IMG/VR virus record: IMGVR_UViG_3300036715_001249
Location: 1-45,573 of that record
Origin: a virus
Length of the DNA stretch: 45,573 nucleotides
Strand: one strand, 5' to 3'
The number at the start of each line of letters is the position of its first letter. The first letter of the stretch is position 1. The position numbers and the translations under genes are program-made. The notes beneath the pieces are model-generated. The model ran no database searches. It was not told the DNA's origin and was given only the letters and a program-made list of their open reading frames with translations. Positions 2,106-17,300 of the stretch are shown here, in pieces.

Positions 2106-2842
2106 ACAAAGAAACCCAACTCGAAGTCATGCCCGGCGGTTCGCGGGCCGTCGCGCCGGTTGAGCCGCAAGGCGTCATCACAATCGAATCCGCATTTAAC
2201 GCGGCGGCATCCAAGGCGCTCGACAAAGACAGCCTCGCCGTCATGGAGCGGCTGCTGGCGATGGACGGCGAACGCAAGTTCAACGCCTCTTTCGCCAAGC
2301 TCCAAAGCGAACTGCCAACCATTGTCGCTTCGTCCATCATTCCGAACCGGGGAAAGTATGAGCGATTCGAGGACGTGATGCGCCAGATCGGAAAGCCGCT
2401 TTCGGAAAACGGATTCAGCATCAAGTTTTCCCAGGACTACCACGAAAACAAAATCGTCGTGACGTGCGAACTTAGGCACGCGGGCGGTCACAAGGAACTC
2501 AACCGCTACGCCGTGCGCGTAAGTGGCAAGGCTGACAGTGAGACGCAGGCCGATTGCAAGGCGTCCACCACGGCGAAGCGCAACGCACTGTTGCAGGCTC
2601 TCAACATTGTCATCCGCCAGGATTGCCTCAACGAAGAAAACGACCCGCACATGGAAGGCAACCCGGATGCGTTCGTGACTCAGGCCGTCGCCGATGAACT
2701 TGAGCGGCGCGTCAAAGAACTGAACGGCGATGTTCCGCGCTTCCTCGCGTTCGCTGGGGCCAAGAAGTTCTCCGAAATCAGGGCGAGCAAATACGACATG
2801 CTGGATTCGTCGTTGCGCGATAAAGCGAAAGGCTCGAAGTGA
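2102..2842 (+). CDS. erf: ERF-family single-strand annealing protein
   Basis: A 246-residue protein matching the ERF superfamily of phage single-strand annealing recombinases. The pattern includes the N-terminal helix before FAKLQSELPTI, the region IPNRGKYERFEDVMRQIGKP where ERF proteins have their conserved start of the core, and the GKADSETQADCKASTTAKRN / ALLQALNI segment typical of the C-terminal core. ERF proteins pair complementary single strands and help circularise or recombine phage DNA. It is coupled (GTGA) to a YqaJ exonuclease gene, the usual two-component phage recombination set. Family call is firm; partner specificity is inferred. Confidence 0.85.
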   Translation: MNKETQLEVMPGGSRAVAPVEPQGVITIESAFNAAASKALDKDSLAVMERLLAMDGERKFNASFAKLQSELPTIVASSIIPNRGKYERFEDVMRQIGKPLSENGFSIKFSQDYHENKIVVTCELRHAGGHKELNRYAVRVSGKADSETQADCKASTTAKRNALLQALNIVIRQDCLNEENDPHMEGNPDAFVTQAVADELERRVKELNGDVPRFLAFAGAKKFSEIRASKYDMLDSSLRDKAKGSK

Positions 2843-3528
2843 AAGTGTTCAGCGGCTTCGAGCAAGGCGGATTGGAATGGCTGACAGCCCGCGCTGGCGT
2901 CGTGACCGCGAGTGAGTTTGGAAACCTTGTGACCGACAAATGGGAGATTCGCAAAGGCGAGATGCCGAAAACGTATCTCAACAAAAAGCTCGCCGAGCGT
3001 TGGACAGGCCAGCCGATGCAAGATGGCTGGGTTTCTCACGCCGCCGAAGATGGCAACCTCTTGGAAGAAGAAGCGCGCAACTGGCTAGCGTTCAAATTCG
3101 GCGACGAGATTCACCGTCCCGCGTTCATCACCACGGATGACGGTCGCGCCGGGTGTTCGCCCGATGGCGTTATCGGCACGGCGGGGATCGAGTTGAAATG
3201 CCCGCAGGCACCGAATCAGGTGAAGTATCTTTTGGCCGGCGGCTTGCCTGAAGAATACGGCCCGCAAGTTCACTTCTCAATGTTCGTCACCCGATGGCAG
3301 AAATGGCATTTCATCTCCTACGGCCGCCGGTTGCCAAAGCTCGTGCTTGTGGTTGAGCGTGACGAGAAGATTCAAGCGGTCATTGCCGACGCGCTGGCGG
3401 GCTTCCTTGAGCGTCTGGACGCCGCCTACGCGCGCCTTGTTGAGATAAACGGCAGCGAGCCAAAGCGGTTCAAGCCAACGCAACCGCAACCCGAACCCGC
3501 CGACGAGCGTTTCGACATAAATTCGTAG
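2839..3528 (+). CDS. YqaJ/lambda-exonuclease-type viral recombinase nuclease
   Basis: A 229-residue protein with a GTG start overlapping the erf stop. The N-terminus has the W-L-x-x-R-x-G-x-V-T-A-S-E signature of YqaJ exonucleases. The PD-(D/E)XK core is visible as AGCSPDGVIG (catalytic Asp) followed by GIELKCP (Glu-x-Lys), and a downstream helix contains GPQVHFSMFV. Such enzymes resect 5' strands of double-stranded DNA to make substrates for an annealing protein, here ERF. Both would act in phage DNA recombination. The protein is of usual length and looks complete. Confidence 0.88.
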   Translation: MKVFSGFEQGGLEWLTARAGVVTASEFGNLVTDKWEIRKGEMPKTYLNKKLAERWTGQPMQDGWVSHAAEDGNLLEEEARNWLAFKFGDEIHRPAFITTDDGRAGCSPDGVIGTAGIELKCPQAPNQVKYLLAGGLPEEYGPQVHFSMFVTRWQKWHFISYGRRLPKLVLVVERDEKIQAVIADALAGFLERLDAAYARLVEINGSEPKRFKPTQPQPEPADERFDINS

Positions 3529-3740: not shown

Positions 3741-3779
3741 TCGGGTCGCGCAAGCGATAGCGTAGCGTTGGACAAAGCC
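3741..3779 (+). other. Candidate attI-like insertion point at the head of the array
   Basis: The sequence GTTGGAC at 3767-3773 fits the GTTRRRY core-site consensus exactly. It is preceded by a short GC-rich region with GCG repeats (GCGATAGCGTAGCG) and no convincing folded left partner, as expected for an attI rather than an attC. It lies just after the replication genes and before the first cassette ORFs. In all known integrons the first cassette begins at attI, so the head of this array should be about here. This is a positional inference only. Confidence 0.3.
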
Positions 3780-3884
3780 AGTATAGCCAACGATGAAACC
3801 AAGATAAGTAAATTGCCCGGACAGACGGAAAAGCTGGTTCACAGTGACTTTGCTGGAGTTCAAAGAAACCAGCGCCACAACAAA

Positions 3885-4256
3885 ATGATCGCCGACATTT
3901 CAGAAACCAAACCGAAACGCGCCAAGCCGTTCGCGGCGAACAACGCCAGCGTGAAGCATCTTGAAGCCGAAGGGTGGACGGTGGCGGTAGTTGAGCAACG
4001 CATCCCGAAAACATTCATCACGCGGGACGCGTTTGGTTTTGCTGACTTGCTCGCTTGCTCGCCGTCGCGAGGCGTGATGCTCGTTCAAGTCACAGGCGGT
4101 CTAAGCACGAGCAACTATCACGCGCGCGTTGCCAAGACGAAGGCGGAACCGCGTCACGCCATCTGGCTTGCCAGCGGCGGCAGGATTCAAATTCATTCTT
4201 GGGAAGGCAAAGGCAAACAGCGCACGTTGCGCGTGCTGGAATTGACGAAGCAATGA
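3885..4256 (+). CDS. PDDEXK-nuclease-like protein, first cassette
   Basis: A 123-residue protein if it starts at ATG 3885; the frame is open back to a TTG at 3768. The core FITRDAFGFADLLAC followed by GVMLVQVTGG resembles a conserved group of small phage and bacterial proteins with a PD-(D/E)XK-like fold. The expected E-x-K is here Q-V-T, so catalysis is doubtful. The C-terminal beta strands (GGRIQIHSWE...RTLRVLEL) also fit that group. It overlaps the next ORF (ATGA), and both end before attC-1, so the pair would be the first cassette cargo. A DNA-binding or nuclease-like role is inferred. Confidence 0.65.
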   Translation: MIADISETKPKRAKPFAANNASVKHLEAEGWTVAVVEQRIPKTFITRDAFGFADLLACSPSRGVMLVQVTGGLSTSNYHARVAKTKAEPRHAIWLASGGRIQIHSWEGKGKQRTLRVLELTKQ

Positions 4257-4438
4257 AACGCGCCTACAAACCCGAATACTGGTCGCTGACACCGCACATC
4301 TTCTGGCGGCTGCTCAAACACCGATGGGTGCCTACACGCGCTGGCGTTTTAATCCGCCTCAACCCGAAGCTGCTGACGGCCAACGAAAAGCTCAGCGACG
4401 GCGAAGGCGAGTCTGCGAGCCGTAGCCGTTCGCTGTAG
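4253..4438 (+). CDS. Hypothetical cassette protein, 61 aa
   Basis: Starts at an ATG overlapping the previous stop. The N-terminal 40 residues (KPEYWSLTPHIFWRLLKHRW) look like a small basic folded domain. The last ~18 residues, rich in Ser, Gly and Glu, are encoded by the attC-1 site itself, whose arm supplies the stop codon. Such an attC-encoded tail is probably not functionally selected. Function unknown. Confidence 0.6.
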   Translation: MKRAYKPEYWSLTPHIFWRLLKHRWVPTRAGVLIRLNPKLLTANEKLSDGEGESASRSRSL

Positions 4439-4451
4439 CGCATGGTTAGAT
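4378..4451 (+). other. attC-1 recombination site
   Basis: Left box GCCAAC, right box GTTAGAT (exact GTTRRRY). Arms GCTCAGCGACGGC and GCCGTTCGCTGTAGC pair with one extra T and one extra A on the 3' arm. About 74 bp; loop of about 22 nt. It closes the first cassette. Confidence 0.85.
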
Positions 4452-4785
4452 TTTGCCAATTAAGAGCCGAGCTTTCGCTGCTGAATGGAGCGGGAGGAGG
4501 TAGCGGAGCGCCCAAAAAACAATCTCAACAAACTTCTTGCAATGCGTAACGTCACGCATGATACTTCCCGCAGTTCTTTGAGTCGTCACAACGAAACCGA
4601 AATCCTTGGTAAGCGCACGCGGCGCTCACCGGCACAACGCAAGCGAGTCGTCATCTTCGGATGGCGCGGCCTTCGGGCGAGAGCGAACAAGTAATGCCAG
4701 TGTGAGCGTGTATCACCGGAGTCGAAAGACGACCGAGGCGCGACACGATAGGGCTGGGCTGACAACGACTCAAAGAACGCTTTTT
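4452..4785. other. Cassette stretch without a convincing gene
   Basis: About 330 bp between attC-1 and the next supported ORF. An ORF from ATG 4442, whose start lies in attC-1, could encode 35 residues, and another at 4485-4694 could encode a 69-residue Arg-rich peptide. Neither has a convincing composition. The stretch holds a 14-bp perfect inverted repeat (separate entry) and several copies of GAGTCGT. It could be regulatory, a small RNA or a decayed cassette ORF. Confidence 0.4.
4573..4778. repeat. 14-bp perfect inverted repeat bounding ~180 bp
   Basis: GTTCTTTGAGTCGT at 4573-4586 and its exact reverse complement at 4765-4778. The outer span is 206 bp and lies within the mostly non-coding part of cassette 1. 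No target duplication is obvious at the flanks. It could be a small non-autonomous insertion or the closing stem of a folded RNA. Confidence 0.6.
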
Positions 4786-4965
4786 ATGACGCATCGAAAA
4801 ATCAGGTTCGGGGAAAAACTCAAGAAGGGGGATGAGCGGTTTCGCTCATCCGGCGGATCATGCTGTCATCCCGGAGGATGGTTCAGCATACCAGCGTGGG
4901 AGGTCGGAGATAAAAGGTCGCATCAAAACGCGGGACTAGGACTTCGGAGTCCGGTGAAAAAATGA
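4786..4965 (+). CDS. Small phage protein of the 'GEKLKKGDE...W' type
   Basis: A 59-residue ORF. The pattern FGEKLKKGDE, then a Trp about 20 residues on, and a final RSPVKK resembles a widespread class of short phage proteins (GExIxxGDE ... W ... RRP). The reading frame contains three perfect short hairpins (9-bp stem at about 4830-4851, CATCC/GGATG at 4866-4879, GGACT/AGTCC near 4937-4950). These are explained at least partly by coding. The stop overlaps the next start (ATGA). The family's function is unknown; it probably binds a partner protein. Confidence 0.55.
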   Translation: MTHRKIRFGEKLKKGDERFRSSGGSCCHPGGWFSIPAWEVGDKRSHQNAGLGLRSPVKK

Positions 4966-5159
4966 ACGCATCCGACATGGGTAAAAAAGGCGCAAGGAAT
5001 CGCTGGAAGGGTAGCACCAAAGCCGAGCGAAAAGAGGAGATGCGTCGCATTGCTCTTCTTCGGTGGGCGGAGGTGGGGGAGAAAACCGCGAGCACAGAGC
5101 GGCGCGCAAAATCTAACGACCCAAGCTCAGCGACGGCTGGGCCAAAACGCCATGATTGA
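4962..5159 (+). CDS. Small basic helical cassette protein, 65 aa
   Basis: The N-terminal 40 residues have the pattern G-x-K-G-A-R-x-R-W-K-x-x-T-K-A-E-R-x-E-x-x-R-R-I-A-x-x-R-W-A. It resembles the proteins at 9812-9997 and 43612-43809, which share the Gly-Ala-Arg / Lys-Ala / Arg-Trp plan. It is likely a short helical nucleic-acid-binding peptide. The last ~18 residues are encoded by attC-2. Second ORF of cassette 1, coupled to the first by ATGA. Confidence 0.6.
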   Translation: MNASDMGKKGARNRWKGSTKAERKEEMRRIALLRWAEVGEKTASTERRAKSNDPSSATAGPKRHD

Positions 5160-5203
5160 AACCGAGGCGCAATCCAGCCGTTCGCTGCCGCGCATGGTTA
5201 GGG
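5111..5203 (+). other. attC-2 recombination site
   Basis: Left box ATCTAAC (exact RYYYAAC) at 5111-5117, right box GTTAGGG at 5197-5203. Arms GCTCAGCGACGGCTGG and CCAGCCGTTCGCTGCCGC pair with extra bases on the 3' arm. 93 bp. The loop holds the stop of the upstream ORF and the start of the downstream ORF. Confidence 0.88.
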
Positions 5204-5445
5204 CAATTCGTGACCTGCTCGACAATCCCTATCCGTGGGACTTGGTGCAAATCCGGCATCTCGTGCAAGCGGACTTCGGAGGTGACGAGGAAGCGGCGAA
5301 AGCTGAGATGGTGACATACTGCTCCGCTCAATACTGCGAGGCCGCGATGGCTCGCCATCTGGAATCCAAACGCGCTGCGGCTGAAGTGGTGCGTGCTCAT
5401 TGCCCTAACGGTCGGGATCAGAGACCCGGCCCACAAGACGCATGA
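5152..5445 (+). CDS. Hypothetical cassette protein, 97 aa
   Basis: I chose ATG 5152 in the attC-2 loop; ATG 5194, inside the right box, is an in-frame alternative. The part inside the cassette (from MVRAIRDLLDNPYPWDLVQI) is a helical acidic protein with two Cys near residues 60-66. The first 14 residues are attC-encoded, and the last ones run into attC-3. It overlaps the upstream ORF by eight bases. No family recognised. Confidence 0.6.
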   Translation: MIETEAQSSRSLPRMVRAIRDLLDNPYPWDLVQIRHLVQADFGGDEEAAKAEMVTYCSAQYCEAAMARHLESKRAAAEVVRAHCPNGRDQRPGPQDA

Positions 5446-5494
5446 ATTGAAACTGAAACGCCCAAGCCGGGTTCTCTGCATCCCGTGGTTGGGC
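5403..5494 (+). other. attC-3 recombination site
   Basis: Left box CCCTAAC at 5403-5409, right box GTTGGGC (exact GTTRRRY) at 5488-5494. Arms CGGGATCAGAGACCCGGC and GCCGGGTTCTCTGCATCCCG pair fully except for one extra T and one extra C on the 3' arm. Very similar to attC-14. Confidence 0.93.
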
Positions 5495-5509
5495 ATCACG
5501 TCGAACAAA

Positions 5510-5827
5510 ATGAAAATCAAAATACCAGCAAAGACGGTCGAAGCCTGCGACGTGTGCAAGCGTGAATCGTCATGGCTGACGAAGTGCAAAGTCTGCGCCC
5601 GTGATTACTGCCACACCTGCGAGGCGATAATCTGCGGCTGCGTCCACCAGCCTGACATCTGCAAAGAATGTGCCGACAAGGAAAAGGTGCGTGCCGTCGT
5701 CGAGAAGTTCGTGAAACCAATCAGCGCGCTCCTCAAGAAGCGTGACACCGCGATGCGCCGCGCTAGTCAGAACGACCGAACTGAGCGACGCGGATCTGCG
5801 ACGCTCGAAAACCAGAAACCTTTATGA
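5510..5827 (+). CDS. Cysteine-rich zinc-binding cassette protein
   Basis: A 105-residue protein with about ten Cys and two His in residues 11-60 (CDVC, CKVC, CHTC, CGC, H, CKEC), a cross-brace-like pattern similar to B-box or FYVE-type fingers. It is followed by a basic helix. It probably binds two zinc ions and mediates protein or nucleic-acid contact; no enzymatic motif. ATG 5510 is preceded by an A-rich stretch and lies after the attC-3 right box, so it is wholly cassette-encoded. The stop overlaps the next start in attC-4. Confidence 0.65.
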   Translation: MKIKIPAKTVEACDVCKRESSWLTKCKVCARDYCHTCEAIICGCVHQPDICKECADKEKVRAVVEKFVKPISALLKKRDTAMRRASQNDRTERRGSATLENQKPL

Positions 5828-5875
5828 GCAAACCCAAACGGCCCGCCCACGTTCGCTCCAGTGAGCTTGTTCGGC
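5767..5875 (+). other. attC-4 recombination site
   Basis: Left box TCAGAAC, right box GTTCGGC at 5869-5875. Arms CTGAGCGACG and CGTTCGCTCCAG pair with an extra T and an extra C on the 3' arm. 109 bp. The loop holds ATGA, joining the two flanking ORFs. Confidence 0.83.
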
Positions 5876-6108
5876 GGTTCACGGACAAACAGGCTCAATG
5901 CGCCGCAAAAATCAGCAACGACATCGCCGAGGACATAGACTGCGGCGAGTCTCGAAGAACTCTGCGGATGGCCGTCGCATACTTCGCGGACGTGGCCTGC
6001 GTCGAAGCGCAACGCCGCGCCGCTGCCGAGTCGAAGCTCGAAATCTTCCGTTGTGCAAAGGGACTCATGGATGCCGCACTTCCGCCGAACGACAAAATCC
6101 AGCCATGA
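5824..6108 (+). CDS. Hypothetical helical cassette protein, 94 aa
   Basis: Starts in the attC-4 loop and stops in the attC-5 loop. All-helical composition with paired Cys and many Ala and Glu (AYFADVACVEAQRRAAAESK). No recognised family. The first 15 residues are attC-encoded and would change on recombination. Confidence 0.6.
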   Translation: MSKPKRPAHVRSSELVRRFTDKQAQCAAKISNDIAEDIDCGESRRTLRMAVAYFADVACVEAQRRAAAESKLEIFRCAKGLMDAALPPNDKIQP

Positions 6109-6211
6109 GCGCCTACAGAAAAAGAGAGTGTCAATGTGGAGCAACGTGGGAAGGACTGAAAACGTCCACCTGCCCGCGATGTAGCTCATTGGCTGCACCG
6201 CATGGTTCGGC
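6084..6211 (+). other. attC-5 recombination site
   Basis: Left box GCCGAAC and right box GTTCGGC are perfect complements. Arms CCAGCCATGAGC and GCTCATTGGCTG pair with an extra T on the 3' arm. 128 bp. The long apical loop is coding (start of the next ORF). Confidence 0.88.
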
Positions 6212-6392
6212 GCTGGAAAGGAGCGTGGAATCGGCGCACAGGCTCGCGATGCTCGCCCTACAATCAGAGCGATACTCTGCCGACCACGAATACCGGAATG
6301 CGGTGGACGCCGTGCTGTCATGGTCACTGCCAGCGTGGACGGCACAATGCCAAGCGCCGAACGTCTGCATGAGCCACGGCGGGCACAAGTGA
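6105..6392 (+). CDS. Zinc-ribbon-headed cassette protein, 95 aa
   Basis: Begins at an ATG overlapping the previous stop, inside attC-5. Residues 8-27 hold C-x-C and C-x-x-C pairs (ECQCGATWEG ... CPRC), a probable zinc ribbon encoded by the attC-5 loop. The remainder, a helical region from residue ~37, lies past the crossover point in the next cassette. The ORF is therefore a hybrid of two cassettes. An in-frame TTG at 6189 could start it close to the crossover. Function unknown. Confidence 0.5.
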   Translation: MSAYRKRECQCGATWEGLKTSTCPRCSSLAAPHGSALERSVESAHRLAMLALQSERYSADHEYRNAVDAVLSWSLPAWTAQCQAPNVCMSHGGHK

Positions 6393-6450
6393 CGCACGAA
6401 TTTGCACGACGGCAACGCGCCCGCCGTTGTGCTCCATGCAGTGGTTCGGG
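6356..6450 (+). other. attC-6 recombination site
   Basis: Left box GCCGAAC, right box GTTCGGG at 6444-6450. Arms GCATGAGCCACGGCGGGC and GCCCGCCGTTGTGCTCCATG pair with three extra bases, all on the 3' arm. 95 bp. Confidence 0.92.
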
Positions 6451-6474
6451 CGCACGAACAACAGAAAAACTAAA

Positions 6475-6705
6475 ATGAAACTGCATCAAGAACGAGTAGT
6501 GACCGAAAAGACCGAACTGGACGACAAGCGCAACAAGCTGACCGCCTTCATTGGTGGAGACCTGTATCGCTCGCTGGACGCAACCGAACGATCGAGGCTC
6601 AACCGCCAACTGGAAGCGATGACCCTGTATGCAAACATCCTCGGAGAACGCATCGCGGCCTTTGCGCCCTACGCAGAGTCCAGCCGCCCCGCGCCGAAAA
6701 TCTGA
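6475..6705 (+). CDS. Conserved small phage protein, 76 aa
   Basis: A helical hairpin-type protein with the pattern E-R-V-V-x-E-K-x-E-L-D-x-K-x-x-K-L-T-A-F-I ... S-L-D-x-x-E-R-x-R-L-x-R-Q-L-x-x-M-x-x-Y-A-x-I-L-x-E-R-I-A-A-F. This is a recurrent class of short phage proteins of unknown function. ATG 6475 lies after the attC-6 right box with an A-rich leader. It is a phage-type gene carried as an integron cassette. Confidence 0.7.
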   Translation: MKLHQERVVTEKTELDDKRNKLTAFIGGDLYRSLDATERSRLNRQLEAMTLYANILGERIAAFAPYAESSRPAPKI

Positions 6706-6778
6706 ACGCTATGGAAACGAAAACGAGCAACGAAAATCAGGACGCCTGCGCGGGGTTGGCTGCGACGACGGGTTCGGT
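6666..6778 (+). other. attC-7 recombination site
   Basis: Left box degenerate (GCCCTAC), right box GTTCGGT at 6772-6778. Arms GTCCAGCCGCCCCGCGC and GCGCGGGGTTGGCTGCGAC pair with an extra T and an extra C on the 3' arm. About 113 bp, with coding loop. Confidence 0.75.
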
Positions 6779-7091
6779 GAAATACGTGCCATTCACAATC
6801 ACCGTCCCCGAAGTGAAGCCCGGCCAAGGTGTCGCCACGAAGGAAATCCAAGTGCCGGTGCGAGACGATGAAGGGGTGGAAATCCTGACCATCGAAGCGC
6901 ACGACCTGATAGACCGCATCAAAATGCAGATGATGCTCTCGCGCCTGAATGAAGCCGTGCGCGAACTCTTTGCCGCCAACCAGAAATTGCCTTCTTCCGA
7001 AGCAAAGGCCACGCCGACGGAGACTGCTGGTGGCGGCATCCCAATTTCACCGAACGACAAGCTCAGCGACGGCGGGCACAAGACGCTATGA
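6711..7091 (+). CDS. Hypothetical cassette protein, 126 aa
   Basis: ATG 6711 is in the attC-7 loop; a GTG at 6777, right at the crossover, is an in-frame alternative that would start at VKYVPF. The body has a beta-rich N-terminal half and a helical acidic part (IEAHDLIDRIKMQMMLSRLN), then a low-complexity tail running into attC-8. No family recognised. Confidence 0.6.
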   Translation: METKTSNENQDACAGLAATTGSVKYVPFTITVPEVKPGQGVATKEIQVPVRDDEGVEILTIEAHDLIDRIKMQMMLSRLNEAVRELFAANQKLPSSEAKATPTETAGGGIPISPNDKLSDGGHKTL

Positions 7092-7139
7092 ATATAACTG
7101 AGACGCAATCCCGCCGTTCGCTGAAGCGACTGGTTCGGC
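7049..7139 (+). other. attC-8 recombination site
   Basis: Left box ACCGAAC, right box GTTCGGC at 7133-7139. Arms GCTCAGCGACGGCGGG and CCCGCCGTTCGCTGAAGC pair with an extra T and an extra A on the 3' arm; the spacer GACAA between box and arm is unpaired. 91 bp. The best textbook example in the array. Confidence 0.93.
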
Positions 7140-7411
7140 CACACTGCTTCATCGCGCCAAGAGGCTACGCAGAACCGGATGGCGAATATCGTAGCCGCTT
7201 CAACTTCGTGTGGTGGTTCTGGCTGCCGAGACTTCACACGCAACGGCCTGACGACCAAAACCCGCGAGTCATCCGGCTCATCTGGCTGTGCTTCGCGGCA
7301 GGGCTGGACATCTGGGGCGACGAGTCGCGCCGGGTGTGGCCGAACGTAGAACTGAGGCACAGCGCCGACAGCGACGCCTCGCAACCAAAGGAAACAACCG
7401 ATGAAAAGTGA
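7088..7411 (+). CDS. Trp-rich hypothetical cassette protein, 107 aa
   Basis: Starts at an ATG overlapping the previous stop in the attC-8 loop; the first ~16 residues are attC-encoded. The body has two Trp/Phe-rich segments (FNFVWWFWLP and LIWLCFAAGLDIW) separated by a charged loop, which could be short membrane-dipping or hydrophobic-core helices. The C-terminus is encoded by attC-9. Unknown function. Confidence 0.6.
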   Translation: MNITETQSRRSLKRLVRPHCFIAPRGYAEPDGEYRSRFNFVWWFWLPRLHTQRPDDQNPRVIRLIWLCFAAGLDIWGDESRRVWPNVELRHSADSDASQPKETTDEK

Positions 7412-7460
7412 TGCTCAAATGCAAGACGGGGGCGCTGTTGCCTCCAGTGATTTGTTAGCC
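7339..7460 (+). other. attC-9 recombination site
   Basis: Left box GCCGAAC, right box GTTAGCC at 7454-7460. Arms ACTGAGGCACAGCGCC and GGCGCTGTTGCCTCCAGT pair perfectly apart from an extra T and an extra C on the 3' arm. 122 bp. Closely similar to attC-13. Confidence 0.93.
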
Positions 7461-7784
7461 GATTCCCCGACGTGGCCGCATGTGCTCGCCTTCGCGAAAC
7501 GCATGGAAGCCAAGCTCGCGAAGAACCGGCACAAGGGCGACCGCGAAGGATGGCTCAAAGACCACCCGTGGGAACTGGTGGAACGGATGCTCGACGAAAC
7601 CGTGGAAGTGCAACAGTCCTTTACGGCTCACTCGGAAGGCATCGACAGCCCCAACCCGGAAAAGACCGCCGACGAATGCGCCGACGTGGCGAACTTCTGC
7701 ATGATGGTGGCAGACCGCGTGACGTATCAGCCTTCGGCTAACGCTCCGGCTCACCGACCGGCGCGAGAACAAGAGAAACCGTGA
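7401..7784 (+). CDS. MazG-like nucleotide pyrophosphohydrolase-type protein
   Basis: A 127-residue protein. The body reads F-A-x-x-M-E-x-K-L-x-x-N-R-H-K-G-D-R-E-G-W, then L-x-E-R-M-L-D-E-T-V-E-V, and later T-A-D-E-C-A-D-V-A-N-F-x-M-M-V-A-D-R. These E-x-x-(E/D) and E-x-A-D helices resemble the all-alpha NTP pyrophosphohydrolase (MazG/dUTPase-2-like) fold, where the acidic residues bind magnesium. Such phage enzymes clean or adjust nucleotide pools; the role here is inferred. The first ~20 residues come from the attC-9 loop, which has an AGGA-type ribosome site before the ATG. Confidence 0.6.
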   Translation: MKSDAQMQDGGAVASSDLLADSPTWPHVLAFAKRMEAKLAKNRHKGDREGWLKDHPWELVERMLDETVEVQQSFTAHSEGIDSPNPEKTADECADVANFCMMVADRVTYQPSANAPAHRPAREQEKP

Positions 7785-7847
7785 ATACGTCTCCGACATC
7801 TGAACTGCTGAGGCCCGCGCCGGTTCGCGTGCAGCCGGTTGTTAGCA
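7736..7847 (+). other. attC-10 recombination site
   Basis: Left box GGCTAAC, right box GTTAGCA at 7841-7847 (GCTAAC/GTTAGC pair). Arms CCGGCTCACCGACCGGCGCG and CGCGCCGGTTCGCGTGCAGC pair with extra bases on the 3' arm. 112 bp. Confidence 0.88.
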
Positions 7848-8110
7848 GCAGTCTCGTGGGCAAGCAAAAGTGGGGGCGCGATGTGCTACCGTGCTGGCGG
7901 TGTGGATTCTCGCCGGTGAGACTCGAAGCGACGCGGGATAACCACGGCAAGGAGTTCGCCTACACCTGCCCAAATGAAGATTGCGAGGAAGTTTGGAAGT
8001 CCCCGCCGATGAAACTCTGGAAACGCAGCAAGGCAGAGGCGGCGGACGCATGGGATGCTGCTAACGAAAAGCTCACCGACCCGGCGGCGCAACCGAAAGA
8101 GACTTTATGA
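7781..8110 (+). CDS. Lar-like restriction-alleviation family protein
   Basis: A 109-residue protein with a GTG start overlapping the previous stop. It has the layout of the Lar restriction-alleviation family: a CWRCG pair in front, a strand with the E-F-A-Y-T-C-P-N-E-D-C second Cys pair (CPNEDC), then an A-x-A-A-D-A-W-D-A-A-N helix corresponding to the family's A-x-x-x-W-N. Lar of the Rac prophage reduces type I restriction, partly by stimulating host modification. If the homology holds, this cassette would help the phage against restriction. N-terminal ~20 residues are attC-10-encoded. Confidence 0.6.
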   Translation: MNTSPTSELLRPAPVRVQPVVSSSLVGKQKWGRDVLPCWRCGFSPVRLEATRDNHGKEFAYTCPNEDCEEVWKSPPMKLWKRSKAEAADAWDAANEKLTDPAAQPKETL

Positions 8111-8189
8111 AACTAGAAAATGTGAACGAAGAAACGGGCGTCCGAACTGCCCAAGCCAAGCCGGGTTCTGGTGCAGCAAGTGGTTCTGC
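8059..8189 (+). other. attC-11 recombination site
   Basis: Left box TGCTAAC, right box GTTCTGC at 8183-8189. Arms GCTCACCGACCCGGC and GCCGGGTTCTGGTGCAGC pair with extra T, T and C on the 3' arm. 131 bp, coding loop. Confidence 0.86.
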
Positions 8190-8373
8190 CTACCCGTGGG
8201 ACGAAGCCTATGACGCCCTGTGCCGGGCACTCGACGAAGATGCCACGGCAATAGAAAAGATCGTGGCCGACGAGGACTCGTGTTGTCCGGCCCGCGAACT
8301 GCGCCGCGAGCGCGCAGCAACTCTGCGCTACGTGCTCGGGCTGGCTGAAACACTGAGACGGTGGGACTGGTAG
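8107..8373 (+). CDS. Hypothetical helical cassette protein, 88 aa
   Basis: ATG overlaps the upstream stop within attC-11; about 27 residues are attC-encoded. The cassette-encoded part (from YPWDEAYDALCRALDEDATA) is acidic and all-helical with adjacent Cys (SCCPARELRRERA). No family recognised. Confidence 0.6.
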   Translation: MKLENVNEETGVRTAQAKPGSGAASGSAYPWDEAYDALCRALDEDATAIEKIVADEDSCCPARELRRERAATLRYVLGLAETLRRWDW

Positions 8374-8501
8374 GCAGAACGTGAAACTCTAACACCGCCG
8401 CCAAGATGTCTACAACCTCAATGCCGCCCGCGATGCCCGCCGAAGCCGGTGACTCTCGAATCACCAGCGATAAGGCGGTTGTCAGCAAGGAATTGTTGGG
8501 C
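8374..8501 (+). other. attC-12 recombination site (degenerate)
   Basis: Left box GCAGAAC, right box GTTGGGC (exact GTTRRRY) at 8495-8501. Arms CTCTAACACCGCC and GGCGGTTGTCAGC pair with an extra T on the 3' arm and about two mismatches. Spacing and layout match the other sites, but this is the weakest stem. Confidence 0.6.
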
Positions 8502-9008
8502 TGCGTCGTCGTGGCCTTCATGCAAAATATGTGGGTGCGTGACCCGGAAAAGGTCAAGGCAAGCATCGAGCGGATGCACTGGATGAAACGGGACGAATAC
8601 CGTCTGCGACTGATCCACTACTCGCTATTCGCTGGCTGCGTAAGTGGCCGAAGGCTCAAGGCTGCGTTCGGTGAAATGTGTGATGCGATAATCTGGGAGG
8701 AAGCCTCGCCGGAAATCGCTGGCGACCCGAAAACAATCTGCCTGCCAGTGCCGCGACATATCCAGTGTGCGCTTGAGCACCACAATCCCGACATCGTAAT
8801 CACGTTCGGGAAACTCGCTGGCGATGCCGTGGCAAAACTCTGGCCTGCGAAACTAATCCGCGTGTGCCATCCGGCAGCGCGGCAACCGGACACAATCCAA
8901 AAACTCAAAGCGGCTGCCGATGAACTGAGGACGTTCGCCAAGCAGCCCAACGAAAAGCTGAGGCACAGTGCCCCGGCGGAAGACTCCGATAACACAAAAA
9001 ATATATGA
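8406..9008 (+). CDS. Uracil-DNA-glycosylase-superfamily-like cassette protein
   Basis: A 200-residue protein, among the largest cassette cargos. Segments LFAGCVSGRRLKAAFG, IIWEEASPEIAG, PDIVITFGKLAGDAV and the late VCHPAAR follow the order of conserved blocks in UDG-like proteins (active-site loop, core strand with the F-G helix, C-terminal H-P motif). The classical G-x-x-P-G motif is not evident, so activity is uncertain; another alpha/beta fold is possible. A uracil- or modified-base-related role would fit a phage. First ~32 residues are attC-12-encoded. Confidence 0.45.
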   Translation: MSTTSMPPAMPAEAGDSRITSDKAVVSKELLGCVVVAFMQNMWVRDPEKVKASIERMHWMKRDEYRLRLIHYSLFAGCVSGRRLKAAFGEMCDAIIWEEASPEIAGDPKTICLPVPRHIQCALEHHNPDIVITFGKLAGDAVAKLWPAKLIRVCHPAARQPDTIQKLKAAADELRTFAKQPNEKLRHSAPAEDSDNTKNI

Positions 9009-9070
9009 ACAACGAAGACCAAACGAAAACAGAAGGCGGGGGCACTATTGCCTCCAGCGCCTTGTTATGC
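8945..9070 (+). other. attC-13 recombination site
   Basis: Left box GCCCAAC (exact RYYYAAC), right box GTTATGC at 9064-9070. Arms GCTGAGGCACAGTGCCCC and GGGGCACTATTGCCTCCAGC pair with extra bases on the 3' arm. 126 bp. Confidence 0.9.
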
Positions 9071-9412
9071 CGTTTCCCGCGAATGGAGAAAGACGGCAAA
9101 GTGGCGGTGCTCTACTCCCCCGGATTCGGGGCAGGCTGGGCAACGTGGAACGACGATGAGTGGAAACCGCTGCTCACAACTCACCGAGACATCGTGCAAG
9201 CCGTCCTCGACGGGGACAAGGAAAAGGCTGGCAAGCTCGCGGAGCAACTAATCCGCGAGGCGGTCGGCAAAGCTGATGCCTATGTGTGCGTCCTCGGTGC
9301 GGACGACCTCAATGTGGAATGGCTTACCAAAGGCGCTCAATTCGAGATTGAGGAATACGACGGCTCGGAAAGCATCCATGTCATCGGCGACCGTGGCTAC
9401 CAGACGGCATAA
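9005..9412 (+). CDS. Conserved unknown ('YSPGFGAGWATWN') protein
   Basis: A 135-residue protein starting at an ATG overlapping the previous stop in attC-13. From about residue 30 it reads V-A-V-L-Y-S-P-G-F-G-A-G-W-A-T-W-N, then an I-V-x-x-V-L-D-G-D-K-x-K-A segment, Y-V-C-V-L-G-A-D-D-L-x-V-E-W-L, and F-x-I-E-E-Y-D-G-S-E. I recall this as a recurring phage/plasmid family of unknown function. The body is complete; the ~28-residue head is attC-encoded. Confidence 0.7.
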   Translation: MNNEDQTKTEGGGTIASSALLCRFPRMEKDGKVAVLYSPGFGAGWATWNDDEWKPLLTTHRDIVQAVLDGDKEKAGKLAEQLIREAVGKADAYVCVLGADDLNVEWLTKGAQFEIEEYDGSESIHVIGDRGYQTA

Positions 9413-9497
9413 CGTCGGGATCAGCGACCCGGCCCACAAGACGCCATGATTGCAACCGAAACGCTCAAGCCGGGTTCGCTGCATCCCGTGGTTCTGG
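9407..9497 (+). other. attC-14 recombination site
   Basis: Left box GCATAAC, right box GTTCTGG at 9491-9497. Arms CGGGATCAGCGACCCGGC and GCCGGGTTCGCTGCATCCCG pair fully except for an extra A or T and an extra C on the 3' arm. 91 bp; almost the same as attC-3. Confidence 0.92.
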
Positions 9498-9581
9498 CGC
9501 ATTTTCAATGGCTTACAAACAATCGGAAAATAGTTGCAGATTTCTCTTGTGCAACCGGCTTGCGCATGGCAGTGTATAGCC

Positions 9582-9815
9582 ATGAAAACGAACACGAACC
9601 AAGTAATCGAAGCACTGAACACCCTCTGCACCGGCTGGACGGAATCACGGCCCGGCGCGATGCTCTGCAACCCGAATGCAGGCGGCGGAATCATAGACTC
9701 GGAAATCGTATCCGGGGAATGGTTCGTAATCTTCAACGACAGCCGGGAAGCACTCTCAGGCTACGAATCACGCGAGGACGCAATCGAAGCCTTCGCAATC
9801 GCGAGCCGCGTGTGA
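9582..9815 (+). CDS. Hypothetical cassette protein, 77 aa
   Basis: Chosen start ATG 9582, inside the cassette. The sequence has the layout helix (NQVIEALNTL), Gly-rich turn, beta strands (GEWFVIFND) and helix (REDAIEAFAIA), a compact alpha/beta domain similar to several unannotated small phage proteins. Stop overlaps the next GTG (GTGTGA). Confidence 0.6.
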   Translation: MKTNTNQVIEALNTLCTGWTESRPGAMLCNPNAGGGIIDSEIVSGEWFVIFNDSREALSGYESREDAIEAFAIASRV

Positions 9816-9997
9816 GCGACCCAATCACCAAATACCTCGCCGCCATCGGGGCGCGAGGCGGCAAGGCGGGGACGGGAAAAGCCAAAGCCCGCACAAAGGC
9901 GCAAGCCCGCGCCGCTGCAAAGGCTCGATGGGACAAGGCGCGTGCTCTGCGCCTGAACGACAAGCTCATCCACGAGGCGGGCGACCAAAGACTATGA
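9812..9997 (+). CDS. Ala/Lys-rich basic small protein, 61 aa
   Basis: GTG start overlapping the previous stop. The core is G-A-R-G-G-K-A-G-T-G-K-A-K-A-R-T-K-A-Q-A, then A-A-A-K-A-R-W, like the proteins at 4962 and 43612. Strongly basic and helical, so probably nucleic-acid binding; the related pattern occurs in many small environmental phage and bacterial proteins. The tail enters attC-15. Confidence 0.6.
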   Translation: MSDPITKYLAAIGARGGKAGTGKAKARTKAQARAAAKARWDKARALRLNDKLIHEAGDQRL

Positions 9998-10049
9998 AAA
10001 CACGAAAAACGTCAACGCCCACATCGTTGGGTGCAGCGACTGGTTCGGC
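9952..10049 (+). other. attC-15 recombination site
   Basis: Left box CCTGAAC, right box GTTCGGC at 10043-10049. Arms GCTCATCCACGAGGCGGGCG and CGCCCACATCGTTGGGTGCA (followed by GC) pair with two mismatches and an extra T and C on the 3' arm. 98 bp. Confidence 0.85.
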
Positions 10050-10209
10050 GATTGACCCGGCCTGCGGAACTGGCGGCTTCCTCGCCGCTGCGCTCGGCAT
10101 CTGGTTCACGCCTCAACACGTCCTCGACTTCCTCGAAGGAAAACCAACCGCGAAGCCGGAACTCATCTACTGCAATCCACCGTTCGGAACGGAATCGCCG
10201 AACGAATAA
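9994..10209 (+). CDS. Miniature N6-adenine DNA-methylase-like protein, 71 aa
   Basis: ATG 9994 overlaps the previous stop in the attC-15 loop. Just past the crossover it reads IDPACGTGGFLAAA, a near-perfect SAM-binding motif I of type I-like N6-adenine methylases (DPACGTGGFL). Only about 35 residues later comes YCNPPFG, like catalytic motif IV (NPPF). In normal enzymes these motifs lie 60-100 residues apart within a protein of several hundred residues. This is either an internal-deletion remnant that kept both motifs or a mimic that binds SAM or a methylase. The attC head contributes ~18 residues. Confidence 0.5.
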   Translation: MKTRKTSTPTSLGAATGSAIDPACGTGGFLAAALGIWFTPQHVLDFLEGKPTAKPELIYCNPPFGTESPNE

Positions 10210-10287
10210 TCTCATGGACGCGCCTCAACAGACTCTTGAATTGCCGATGGACGCGATAAGCGCGTTCCATGCATCGCCTTGTTCAGC
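10197..10287 (+). other. attC-16 recombination site
   Basis: Left box GCCGAAC, right box GTTCAGC at 10281-10287. Arms TCATGGACGCGC and GCGCGTTCCATGCA pair with an extra T and C on the 3' arm. 91 bp. Confidence 0.87.
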
Positions 10288-10768
10288 GGTTCTTTCGCCG
10301 TGCCGACTCTATCGCTACGACCTGTGGCGGCGATGGAGTGACGCGCCCTACTGCATGTTCGTGGGACTAAACCCCTCGACGGCTGACGAGACGCAAGACG
10401 ACCCGACAATCCGCCGCTGCGTGGGCTACGCGAAGCGGTGGAACTACGGCGGACTCTGCATGGTGAATCTCTTCGCCTTCCGTGCCACGCAACCGCGAGA
10501 CATGATGGCCGCGCAAGACCCAATCGGGCCGGACAATGACCGCACGTTGAAAACTCTCTCGCAAGGCGCGGGAATCGTAATCGCGGCGTGGGGCAAGGAC
10601 GGCAACCACATGGGCAGAGACAAGCAGGTTATGGCGCTACTGCCGCACCTCTACTGCCTGAAACAAAACAAAGACGGCTCGCCCGCCCATCCGCTCTACC
10701 TGCGAGGGGACGCGACGCCGTATCCGCTGAACGGTGAGATGAGCCACGCGGCGGCGAGCGCGGTATAA
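10214..10768 (+). CDS. DUF1643 family protein
   Basis: A 184-residue protein. Residues ~50-69 read V-G-L-N-P-S-T-A-D-E-T-Q-D-D-P-T-I-R-R-C, followed by MVNLFAFRAT, DPIGPDNDR, VIAAWG and HPLYL. This block order is diagnostic of DUF1643, found in many bacteria, phages and mobile elements. Its biochemical function is not known to me. ATG 10214 lies in the attC-16 loop; ATG 10250 is an internal alternative. The gene fills the largest single-ORF cassette. Confidence 0.85.
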   Translation: MDAPQQTLELPMDAISAFHASPCSAVLSPCRLYRYDLWRRWSDAPYCMFVGLNPSTADETQDDPTIRRCVGYAKRWNYGGLCMVNLFAFRATQPRDMMAAQDPIGPDNDRTLKTLSQGAGIVIAAWGKDGNHMGRDKQVMALLPHLYCLKQNKDGSPAHPLYLRGDATPYPLNGEMSHAAASAV

Positions 10769-10857
10769 GGATCGAAATGAATGCGACACCCGAACGTAAA
10801 GAGATGATGGCCGAAGTCAGTAGCCAAGCCGCGTTGTGCTCCATCGAATTGTTAGAG
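10726..10857 (+). other. attC-17 recombination site, last of the array
   Basis: Left box GCTGAAC, right box GTTAGAG at 10851-10857. Arms GATGAGCCACGCGGC and GCCGCGTTGTGCTCCATC pair with extra T, T and C on the 3' arm. 132 bp. No clear attC follows it before intI. Confidence 0.9.
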
Positions 10858-11013
10858 AGCATGGCGAAACGGCTTGAGCGTAGAGCGCGTGAAATGGACA
10901 AGGCTCGCGCCTTCAATGACGAGGAACGAACCCAGCGCCGGTGCATGGTCGTCATCTACATGGAAATTTCCAACATGCTCCGAGCGGAGTGTGAAAAGCT
11001 CTCTAACATCTAA
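10777..11013 (+). CDS. Hypothetical helical protein, 78 aa
   Basis: ATG 10777 in the attC-17 loop is preceded by an AAGGA-like ribosome site. The protein is a long charged helix pair (LLESMAKRLERRAREMDKAR). Its body lies after the last attC, so it is either the fixed gene at the array tail or part of a cassette whose own attC is lost. It ends 8 bases before the intI GTG, so the two are probably one transcript. Confidence 0.6.
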   Translation: MNATPERKEMMAEVSSQAALCSIELLESMAKRLERRAREMDKARAFNDEERTQRRCMVVIYMEISNMLRAECEKLSNI

Positions 11014-11037
11014 TATGCCGAGTGGCATCTGTTAAAA
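11003..11037 (+). other. Att-like hairpin between the array and intI
   Basis: TAACA ... ATGCC, GAGT loop, GGCAT ... TGTTA forms a two-part stem with an unpaired segment on the left. The left end, CTCTAAC, resembles RYYYAAC and the right end, GTTAAAA, resembles GTTRRRY. It covers the last stop codon and the intI start region. It could be a decayed attC, an attI-like site or a translational control hairpin for intI. Confidence 0.35.
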
Positions 11038-12017
11038 TGGAGATTCACACCGCGAAAGCAGAACCGAAGCCGAAACGGCTGCGCGAGGAAATGCGCGAGG
11101 TGATGACCATGCTCCGCTACAAGCGCAGCAGCATCGCCCAGTATCTCGGCTATTGTTACGAGTTCGCGGCGTTTCATAACCGTGATCCGAGGGAAATGCG
11201 CGAGCCGGAAATCCGCGCGTTCCTGACCTACCTGGCGGATGTGAAGAAGGTGGCATGGTCTACGCAGCACTCGGCCATGTGCGCCATCGTCTGCCTCTAT
11301 CGCGAGGTGTTGAAGGTGAAGCTCGGCGATTTCGGGCAGTTCAGCTTGGCGGCAAAGCCGAAGCGACTACCCATCGTGATAGCGAAGGCGCGCACGCTTG
11401 AGTTGATCCGGGCCGTCCAGGGTGAGGAGAACCGGCTGGTCTGCCGCACGCTTTACGGTTGCGGGCTACGCATCAATGAAGCCCTCGACTTGCGCGCCCA
11501 AGAGATTGATTTCGAGCGCGGCACGGTGACGATCCGTGCGCCGAAGCAGGATCATGACCGCCAAGTGATGTTGCCGGAAACTTTGCGGGACGATCTGAGG
11601 GCGCAGATTGAACGCATGAGGTTGCGATGGCAGCAGGACGGCGGCGCGTGCGTGGCCTTGCCGGATGCCTTGCGGCACAAATACAGGAACGCGGAACGTG
11701 AATTTGGCTGGCAATATGTATTCGGTGCAAAATATCTCTCGCCTGACCCGGAGGATCAGGGCCGGTTGAAGCGGTGGCACATCCACGAGAACACCATTCA
11801 GAAATGCGTTCAGGCAGCGCGGCATCTCATCGGGCTGGATCAAAGGTTCACGCCGCATTGCTTCCGGCATTGCTTTGGCACGCATCTTTACGAAGCTGGC
11901 ACGGACATCTACCGTATCAAGGATTTGATGGGGCACCGGAAGATTGAGACGACGCTGATTTATATCCATCTTGCGCGGAAGCCGGCAGAGTGCATCAAAT
12001 CGCCATTGGACAAATGA
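11022..12017 (+). CDS. intI: Integron integrase IntI
   Basis: A 331-residue tyrosine recombinase, GTG start (ATG 11037 possible). The N-terminal SAM-like domain includes YKRSSIAQYLGYCYEF and PEIRAFLTYLA. Catalytic residues in order: R150 (CGLRIN), K175, H279-x-x-R282 (HCFRH), H305 (LMGHRK) and Y314 (LIYIHL). Between boxes I and II lies the integron-integrase-specific insertion, VALPDALRHKYRNAEREFGW followed by QYVF and SPDPEDQG, absent from XerC/D and phage integrases. The C-terminal SPLDK also matches IntI proteins. IntI recombines folded single-stranded attC sites with attI or other attC sites. All residues needed for activity are present. It lies downstream of the array and reads with it. 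Confidence 0.96.
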   Translation: MASVKMEIHTAKAEPKPKRLREEMREVMTMLRYKRSSIAQYLGYCYEFAAFHNRDPREMREPEIRAFLTYLADVKKVAWSTQHSAMCAIVCLYREVLKVKLGDFGQFSLAAKPKRLPIVIAKARTLELIRAVQGEENRLVCRTLYGCGLRINEALDLRAQEIDFERGTVTIRAPKQDHDRQVMLPETLRDDLRAQIERMRLRWQQDGGACVALPDALRHKYRNAEREFGWQYVFGAKYLSPDPEDQGRLKRWHIHENTIQKCVQAARHLIGLDQRFTPHCFRHCFGTHLYEAGTDIYRIKDLMGHRKIETTLIYIHLARKPAECIKSPLDK

Positions 12018-14360: not shown

Positions 14361-17300
14361 CTATTTCTGCTTTTCCTTCGCCTCGTAGCTCGATACGCCC
14401 GCGCCGAATTCAGACAGCACTTGAATGATTGCGCCCTCGGTCATGCCGCGTTCGCGCATCGTCGTCACAAGCTCGCTGATAGCCAGCGGAACCGGAAGCG
14501 CGGCGCTCGCAGCCTCGCCGGGAGTCACGCGCACTTTCTTCGGGTCTTTGCCGTAATCAATCGCGGCAATCGTGGCGCGGACAGCGGCGGCAATGTCGGG
14601 CCGCGCCTTGTTCTTGAAGAAATTCCAGATGACTTCGCCGGAACCAGCCTTCGCAATGTTCCGGTTCTTGTCCTCAATCGAAGTTGTCTCGCCTTTCTGC
14701 AACCGTTCTTCAAAAACAATCAACTGTTGGAATCCACCCCACGGATCAATGCGAGTGTTGCCGCGAACCACTTTGCCGAAGTCGGTTGATGTGGAGACGT
14801 TCTTCTCCTTCTCATCAAACAGGCGGCTAACGAGGGCGAGAGCAACGCCCCCAAGAATAATCCGGGCGTATTCCTTCACGACAATCTTGCGCGCCCTGGC
14901 ACTGCCGGCCAATTTGCCGCCGCCCCAAATCGGCTGGCCCGTCAGGAATTGAACCCGGCTGGCGAGAAGCTTTGGCGACCATAGAACAATGCTCCCAGCT
15001 TTGGAGACGGCGGGATTCAGTTTGCCGCGTCCAGTGGCGATGTTGACCATGTTGCCGATCACGCGCAGTTCAACATCTGTAGGCGGTCGGTCCCTGAAAT
15101 TCACGTCAAGCAGATGGTCAAAAAATCCAGCGCGCATCGTGTTCAGTGACGCAATGAAAGCCCGGTTGGAGGCCCGCACGCCGCGCGAGGCGAGTTTGAA
15201 CGGGGCGGTAACAGCCGACTTGCCGAGGTTGCCAGTCTTGAACGGAAGTTTCGCCCATTCGTCCAAGATGGATATGGCGTTTTCCTCGCCCTTGGTGAAC
15301 TTCGTTTCGTTCAGGTCGGTGTATTCGATGCCGGCCTTCTTGTCCGCGCCACTGGTTGAGTTCGGGCGCATCTTGCGGCGTTGCTCGATGACTTCTGCCC
15401 GGCCCTCGCTGGACGCCGCTTTGAACATATCCACGAATGGACGGTAAAGCAGTTCCGCCCCCGCCTTGGGATTGGTCAGCACGCGGGTCGAAGCGGAAAG
15501 CAGCGCGGCAAGCATCTGGCGGGGCGATGACAGGTCGTAGCTCGAAACGATGTTCACAAACGCGCCGCCCGTCTGCTTGATGCCACTCCAAACCTTTTGC
15601 GCCTTCGTGCGCCGGGCCAGTTCGTATTCGTGGTTCGCTTTGTCGTATGCGGTTTTCTCCCGTTGCACGTCCGCCAACGCCTTCAAAACATCCTCGTTCA
15701 GTTCGCGCTTTGGCTTGGGCGGTGCCTTTTCAAAATCTCCCTTGGCCGTGCGCTCCTGATATTCGGCGGCGCGCTGGCGCAGTCGTAGTAGGTAGTTCAG
15801 CAGAAACTTTTCGTGGGCCTCGGGTGAAGGCTGATTGCGCTCCCGTGCGTTCTTCCGCTGCTCCTTGAGTTCGGCCAGCTTCTTCTCGCGCTCGATCACC
15901 CGCGCATCTTCCGAAGGCGTCCGCTCTTTCTTGGGCTTGCTGAAAACCTCGTCGTCGCGAAGCTGATTTTCAATCGCCTCAATCTGTTTGTCCAACGTCT
16001 TGACGCGGGACTCTGCCGCCGCTGCCTCTGGCTCTGGCTTTGGCTGTGCCGCGTCGCGGGCGTAGTCACGCTGCTCCTTGAGTTCGGCGATGCGCGCGCG
16101 GGCGGCGGTCAGCTTCGCGCTCTCGCCAGCGAACGGCACGCGACTGCGTGGAAAGATTTCGCCGCTCCGCATCTGCCGCTCGATCTCGGCAATCTGCCGC
16201 TCTGCCGACTTCTCCACCGCTGCCAACCGCTGTGCATCCGTCAACTCCCTGCCGAAAATCTCGTCGTGCGCTTTTTGGATCTCCGCAATCTCGTTCCTCA
16301 ACCGCAAGGTTTCCGCGTTGTAAGGTGATGGCGAGCGTTCGCTGATGATGCGCTGCCGAGTGGCGACCTCCTGCCTCAAGTCGCGCAGGCGGTTCGTCAG
16401 CCGAGTGTTGATGGAGTCCAGGGCGGACTTGATGGCTTTGGCCGGGTCGGTCGGAACATCCAAGTGAAAGGCTTTCTTGGCCTCGTTCACCATCTTGATC
16501 CAGCCGCGTTGAATGTCGCTGGGGGCATCGCGCAGCAAGCCGGTTGCCTTGGGCGATTCGCCTTTGAAATAGTCCAGCAGCTTGCGGACGGAGATAATCT
16601 GCGCGGAGATGTCGCGCACCGTGCGCTTGGTGAATTCCGGCGATGGCAGCTTTGACTTGCCGTAACCGCTCATCAAATCCATGGCCTGCTCGCGCGTGAT
16701 CGTCGGGTCAATCTTCTGCAAAATCTCGTGAACGCGGGTTTCCATCGGCAACCGCTCCTTGATGCCTTCGTGTTCAACGAGCAATTCCATCAGCTTGCGG
16801 ATGGACGGGTTTGCGCCGGTCAAATCGCCTTCCTCCTTGTGATGCTCCTTCAGGTAGTCGGTTACGTCCTTTTGTTCCGCTGCCAAGTCGCGGGTCTTTC
16901 CAGCACCCTTGACGACTCGTTTAACCTTTTCGGAATCCACGCCTTTGACTTTCAGAAGGTCAGACTCAAGCATTTCTTGGCTCTTGTCGTAAGCCGGTTT
17001 CAAGTAAGGCTCAATCTGATCTGCATACTCAACTCCGACGTGACGGCGAACCGCGTCCGCCCACTTGGCAAAATCCACAATCTTCCGGCCCAGCTTGGCA
17101 ACCCCGATTTCGGCCAGGTCGAAGATTATCGTAGGGTCTGCGCCCCCGGTGTTCGTGCGCGCCAGTTTTTCGCGCAAGCGCAACACGGCCACGTCAGCGC
17201 GGCGCTCGAAGCCTTTGACGATGCGCTCGGCCCGGTCCAAGATGGACGGATGGTATTGCGGCTGGCTGGCGGCTTCTTTTGCAACCCGGTCGAGTGCTTC

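Follow-up and report, generated by a model that had tools for sequence, protein, structure and literature searches.

The stretch of DNA analyzed here, IMG/VR virus record IMGVR_UViG_3300036715_001249 (45,573 bp; called the window throughout), is very probably a phage genome that carries a complete integron of a reversed-cassette type. In the textbook integron, cassettes are oriented so that their genes are read by a promoter at the attI site, and the attC recombination site comes after the gene. The integron of the window spans positions 4378-12017. Its array occupies 4378-11037 and consists of 17 cassette units (4384-11006; 245-733 bp each, counted between successive left boxes), next to an integron integrase gene, intI. 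Its genes lie on the + strand and are directed at attI and intI. This is a true integron, which is new by its gene polarity, by the joint at which cassettes meet and by its carrier; integrons in phages as such are already known.

The integrase gene (11037-12017, + strand, in an open reading frame (ORF) that extends upstream to a GTG at 11022) is the final gene of the array operon. Its product (11022/11037-12017) reaches 290.4 bits on the integron integrase model TIGR02249, for which the cut-off is 265, compared to 108 bits for XerC and 90 for XerD. The catalytic residues R, K, HxxR, H and Y are present, together with the IntI-specific EFGWQYVF patch. Directly before the start codon lies the probable attI (11001-11037, - strand, CTCTAA|CATCTAATATGCCGAGTGGCATCTGTTAAAA, crossover at 11006|11007), from which the array runs leftwards. 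We base this assignment on position, on box pairing - the left box pairs at 10/10 positions with the right box of attC17 - and on analogy, as the location is the same in the phages L120, L094, L097, L132 and L096, where flanking homology starts at AA|C before intI.

The attC sites were defined by their boxes and then tested. A covariance model (R1), for which 13 attC sites from class-1 integrons and bacterial genomes were used and no sequence of the window, was run unfiltered over the whole of it. Its top 15 hits, which all lie on the minus strand and score 37.7 to 14.1 bits, are 15 of the 17 sites at their exact box-to-box coordinates. The other two sites reach 12.0 and 11.2 bits, compared to 12.8 for the best match outside the array. 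On the plus strand, the same sites reach at most 11.3 bits. From left to right, and all on the - strand, the sites are attC1 (4378-4451, crossover 4383|4384, 32.9 bits), attC2 (5111-5203, 27.5 bits), attC3 (5403-5494, 31.6 bits), attC4 (5767-5875, 23.3 bits), attC5 (6084-6211, 28.9 bits), attC6 (6356-6450, 17.7 bits), attC7 (6666-6778, 12.0 bits, with a degenerate left box, TAC, and a stem of 12.6 with a bulge on the 3' arm), attC8 (7049-7139, 37.7 bits), attC9 (7339-7460, 14.1 bits), attC10 (7736-7847, 22.0 bits), attC11 (8059-8189, 14.8 bits), attC12 (8374-8501, with 11.2 bits for 8387-8501 and a 12-nt box complementarity), attC13 (8945-9070, 14.3 bits), attC14 (9407-9497, 33.7 bits), attC15 (9952-10049, 20.5 bits), attC16 (10197-10287, 27.1 bits) and, proximal to attI, attC17 (10726-10857, 16.6 bits).

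Two further approaches gave concordant results. When the first 10 nt of each unit were compared with its own left box, beyond the GTT/AAC core, 108 of 126 positions matched, as expected of excisable cassettes, while the best of 200,000 permutations gave 84, and unit 3 was the one clear exception; complementarity runs between boxes reach 12 nt in this array, and the ends of known cassettes are complementary over 9-11 nt (Bouvier et al. 2009). A strict rule-based scan gave 11 sites on the minus strand of the window, all but one of which lie within the array, versus five in each control, that is, the reversed and the complemented sequence, where the five sites were scattered over 45 kb. These tests and the covariance model replaced an initial home-made hairpin scan, which was unspecific; Rfam held no matching model. 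All 17 attC sites are real.

The polarity of these sites determines where recombination takes place. In known attC sites, the extra-helical bases reside on the R''-L'' arm and determine the strand used, and the bottom strand is cleaved in R' between A and C (Bouvier et al. 2009). In the window, all 17 sites carry the extra-helical base on the 3' arm when read on the + strand, so that this strand, which is also the coding strand, is the recombinogenic 'bottom' strand, with the crossover at AA|C of the left box. For comparison, in class-1 arrays and in the virus Rctr41k the gene strand has its extra-helical bases on the 5' arm, and the Vibrio and Shewanella phage arrays gave a mixed result by a simple stem score. 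Relative to intI, the geometry is classical: attC polarity is on the minus strand in 17/17 sites, leading away from intI. It is the genes that are reversed, since they do not lie on the strand of attC polarity. Trained on the remainder of the genome, a codon model gives the array a score of 134 on the + strand and 0 on the - strand; codon scores were preferred to ORF length, which misjudged the coding strand of several loci.

Reading frames provide further evidence for the position of the crossover. Where a + strand gene crosses a left box, AAC falls in frame as a codon in 16/16 cases, for which the probability by chance is about 7e-8, and the other two genes end just before the box. At the right boxes, GTT is found in all three frames (5, 5 and 4 cases, by hand count from the ORFs). 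A joint inside the AAC codon requires a fixed frame, and the observed frame fits; as AAC is always read as a codon, an exchange swaps C-terminal tails in frame. The same is seen in other phages, where AAC is in frame in 13/13 cases with coding support. Both ends of the array illustrate the rule. The attI site supplies an in-frame Asn-Ile-stop, and the last cassette gene ends accordingly in ...LSNI; at the other end, a phage-side anchor gene (4253-4438, + strand) crosses the left box of attC1 in frame and has its C-terminal tail encoded by attC1. If the array were removed, this anchor gene would end in ...LTANI at the empty attI.

Scans based on an IntI alignment provided about 80 viral and 80 bacterial loci, among which natural exchange events could be observed. 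L060 and L061 are phage contigs about 99% identical, with identical IntI, that differ by three whole units, two being extra in L060 and one in L061. In all three cases the boundary is AA|C of the left box: the left flank is 100% identical as far as this point, and homology of the right flank resumes from it. L120 is the empty counterpart of the filled L130, while L094, L097, L132 and L096 share a common attI from AA|C onward and have different neighbors. L058, the nearest to the window in the IntI tree, has an empty attI-like site directly before intI. L120 and L058 are both empty integrons on phage contigs, which encode IntI and have an attI-like site but no cassettes, and the attI of each reads AA|CAGTGATTA. 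At L106 (118-989), three attC sites of 52.8-54.6 bits are spaced by exactly 389 bp, and look like a recently duplicated cassette. Integrons of this build therefore exchange cassettes at AA|C, not at G|TT: the bacterial-attC model, the reading-frame test and the natural insertion breakpoints concur on the left box.

A first-pass annotation of this DNA had proposed a complete integron inside a phage genome, and IntI, 17 attC sites, attI and phage genes are indeed all there. It was equally right that the integrase is of the IntI type, that there are 17 attC sites, and that the extra unpaired bases are on the 3' arm in a single orientation. The IntI score also lies well above those of XerC and XerD, the check which that annotation had itself proposed. 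It placed the crossover between the G and the TT of the right box; polarity, frame and natural breakpoints move it to AA|C of the left box. The integron does not begin at 3767, where only GTTGG pairs; an '18th' attC at 11001-11037 is more probably attI; and the cassettes, given as 239-752 bp, take the lengths stated above when measured from left box to left box. It had also suggested that IntI shuffles cassettes and that related genomes would vary at the crossover. Gain and loss do occur in related phages (L060/L061, L120/L130), with breakpoints at AA|C instead of G|TT, but the one close relative of the window itself has the same array.

Most phage arrays that could be resolved have the reversed layout. 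When arrays were counted that have two or more model hits and whose coding strand could be resolved, 17 of the 22 viral arrays located upstream of intI were reversed (18/23 when the window is included), whereas 11 of 12 bacterial arrays were canonical (Fisher p about 2e-4, one downstream viral array also being counted); as some rows are not independent (L060/L061, L080/L082) and calls from codon usage can be wrong, the direction of this contrast is more secure than its number. The sole bacterial array scored as reversed, L175 from Planctomycetes bacterium Pla163, has two attC sites and lies downstream of intI. In a quick IntI tree, most reversed phage IntI fall into one 33-row clade, 31/33 viral (SH value 97). 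The window groups with L058 on a separate branch, and L131 stands on a third.

The carrier of the integron is a phage genome. A second contig, IMGVR_UViG_3300035180_001006 (23.7 kb; read as L001 + L007), bridges the two ends of the window, between which a DnaB gene is divided, with a few extra bases. It runs from the region of the terminase large subunit (TerL) across the window ends and the array to beyond intI, at >99.8% identity (99.94% over the integron), which physically links TerL to the array. The genome is thus either a circle or circularly permuted, and an assembly accident does not account for the integron. TerL (40386-41840, - strand), the major head protein (35861-36919, - strand) and replication genes, all on the integron replicon, assign the carrier to the Caudoviricetes.

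Other explanations were weighed against this one. Under ordinary polarity, the attC sites would stand at the 3' ends of the + strand genes, the crossover would be at G|TT of the right box, and attI would lie at 3767. The symmetry of the R boxes and the complementarity of unit ends are compatible with either polarity. This layout is nevertheless very improbable, as the sites score 37.7-11 bits on the minus strand and at most 11.3 on the plus strand, the extra-helical base is on the wrong arm for it, the frame is fixed at left boxes and random at right boxes, related phages break naturally at the left box, and position 3767 has no attC features. Could the genes instead be truly on the minus strand, in the classical layout, with the + strand ORFs as antisense artefacts? 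GC-rich DNA often has long antisense ORFs, and the simple ORF-length test did misjudge some loci; a DUF1643 domain found on the + strand at E=2e-46, the codon score (+134 versus 0), the ATGA overlaps between genes and the fixed frame at AAC make this extremely doubtful. The metagenomic source of the record leaves room for an assembly chimera between a phage contig and a bacterial integron, an idea whose probability is next to negligible given that the second contig spans the TerL region, the window ends, the array and the sequence past intI, and that similar phages exist elsewhere.

The likeliest of the alternatives, although itself unlikely, is that a fragment of a chromosomal integron was acquired by chance and is decaying, its arrangement being accidental and the array inert. 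It draws on observations that count against a functional reversed integron in the window: the array is unchanged in the one near-identical relative; the ends of unit 3 (5409-5772) are unmatched, the attC7 box is degenerate, and pairing is imperfect around attC7, so that some units may be fused or decayed; and most cassette ORFs match no protein family. Also unfavorable, more generally, is that five viral arrays scored as canonical, in a count that took the coding strand from codon usage and pooled the training data when contigs were short. Against decay, IntI is intact, the frame rule is maintained at 16/16 sites, many phage IntI cluster apart from bacterial ones (in the largest such clade, 31/33 rows are viral, SH 97), and many phages have the same architecture with live exchange. 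We retain a complete integron with reversed cassettes as the best description of the window, in which IntI is probably catalytically competent and expressed and has presumably been active recently.

How such an integron could function can be sketched as follows. Transcription of the array would come from an early operon of the phage, with intI as its last gene. The integrase would fold the coding (+) strand of each attC and cleave the left box between AA and C, such that the mobile unit would be an attC, whose loop holds a start codon, followed by the gene body up to the Asn codon (AAC). Insertion or loss of a unit would then form a joint within the AAC codon, and the last residues and stop codon of a gene would be supplied, always in frame, by the next attC or by attI. 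We consider it likely that phages evolved an integron class of their own, in which polarity is reversed relative to the genes, attC forms the 5' end of the cassette, expression comes from a phage operon instead of the promoter Pc, new cassettes enter the operon distally, beside intI, and every exchange reassigns a C-terminal tail via the Asn-codon joint.

The integron of the window shares with bacterial mobile and chromosomal integrons (class 1, Vibrio, Shewanella) the IntI family, an attI adjoining intI, the attC organization R''-L''-L'-R', the extra-helical bases on R''-L'', the classical polarity of the array away from intI, and paired cassette ends. It differs from them in that its genes face attI, whereas bacterial ones face away; in that attC is at the 5' end of genes, with joints within coding sequence and in a fixed frame; and in that the array is phage-borne and apparently forms one operon with intI last. 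Treponema integrons (PMC3607928) also have intI and cassette genes on one strand, by a different inversion: there, intI is directed at attI and the cassette genes lead away from it, while in the window the genes are directed at attI and intI leads away. For Xanthomonas, the literature mentions isolated cassette genes that are reversed.

Qi et al. 2023 (PMC9892861) described phage genomes that carry parts of integrons or complete ones, so that the first-pass remark that phage-borne integrons are rarely reported was half right. The complete integrons of that study, in three temperate phages, are of bacterial origin, captured by temperate phages or phage-plasmids, and neither reversed genes nor a frame rule was reported for them; it also describes virulent phages with attC clusters and no intI, and five of six phage attC sites tested were active with IntI1. 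A second phage design, with the array downstream of intI, is that of Rctr41k (KX853513) and its kin. Rctr41k, L072, L091 and L101 resemble the window by a phage-borne IntI with an attC array, and are unlike it in this downstream position and in an attC polarity that follows the genes where resolvable. The attC array of Rctr41k (L053, 5600-10100), a virus deposited in a public database, lies downstream of an IntI annotated as xerD; Qi et al. 2023 do not list this virus in their printed tables. For a class of reversed, in-frame phage integrons, we found no report in the open-access literature, subscription papers and preprints being outside the search.

Most ORFs of the cassettes have their start within the attC that forms the 5' end of the unit and their stop within the following attC, and ATGA overlaps are frequent. 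All are on the + strand: in unit 1, 4962-5159 (65 amino acids); unit 2, 5152-5445, starting in the attC2 loop and stopping in attC3; unit 3, 5510-5827; unit 4, 5824-6108, with an ATGA overlap with the unit 3 ORF; unit 5, 6105-6392; unit 6, 6475-6705; unit 7, 6711-7091, with a codon score of 24 on +; unit 8, 7088-7411; unit 9, 7401-7784; unit 10, 7781-8110, with a weak zinc-finger match (NF041915, E=8e-6, below cut-off); unit 11, 8107-8373, stopping just before attC12; unit 12, 8406-9008; unit 13, 9005-9412, whose stop is the TAA of the attC14 left box; unit 14, with two ORFs, 9582-9815 and 9812-9997; unit 15, 9994-10209, with a weak match, below cut-offs, to N6-methylase motif I; unit 16, 10214-10768, with the full DUF1643 domain (PF07799); and unit 17, 10777-11013, ending ...LSNI* in attI. 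Pfam and NCBIfam name almost none of the cassette proteins. The unit 15 protein (71 amino acids) has the N6-adenine methylase motifs DPACGTGGFL and NPPFG without the remaining enzyme. Unit 1 contains a perfect 14-nt inverted repeat (4573-4586/4765-4778, GTTCTTTGAGTCGT / ACGACTCAAAGAAC), which resembles both ends of a further, decayed cassette.

Elsewhere in the phage genome, Erf (2102-2842) and an exonuclease (2839-3528) are encoded to the left of the array. The ORF at 871-1410 consists mostly of a repeated ARDAYAAAVKP-like peptide, and its DNA repeats also break the L001/L007 alignment. In the late region, which is on the minus strand, an HNH endonuclease gene (23342-23950, + strand) likely encodes a homing endonuclease, and a protein of 2158 amino acids (14361-20837) has no Pfam match. 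No separate phage integrase, repressor or lysogeny gene was found among the proteins scanned, most of which match nothing. The terminase relatives of the window carry a matching portal, head and tube set; no arrays were present within the stretches fetched for these TerL relatives (L009-L051).

Together, the reversed layout and the in-codon joint would constitute a modular system for phage accessory genes that is suited to one-way transcription, and in which protein tails become exchangeable parts; the reversed system occurs with the IntI of several phage lineages. Integron finders that presume the classical gene orientation may misannotate such arrays. Bacterial integrons are currently regarded as stores of anti-phage genes, and a phage-side integron trading small accessory genes would be their natural counterpart.

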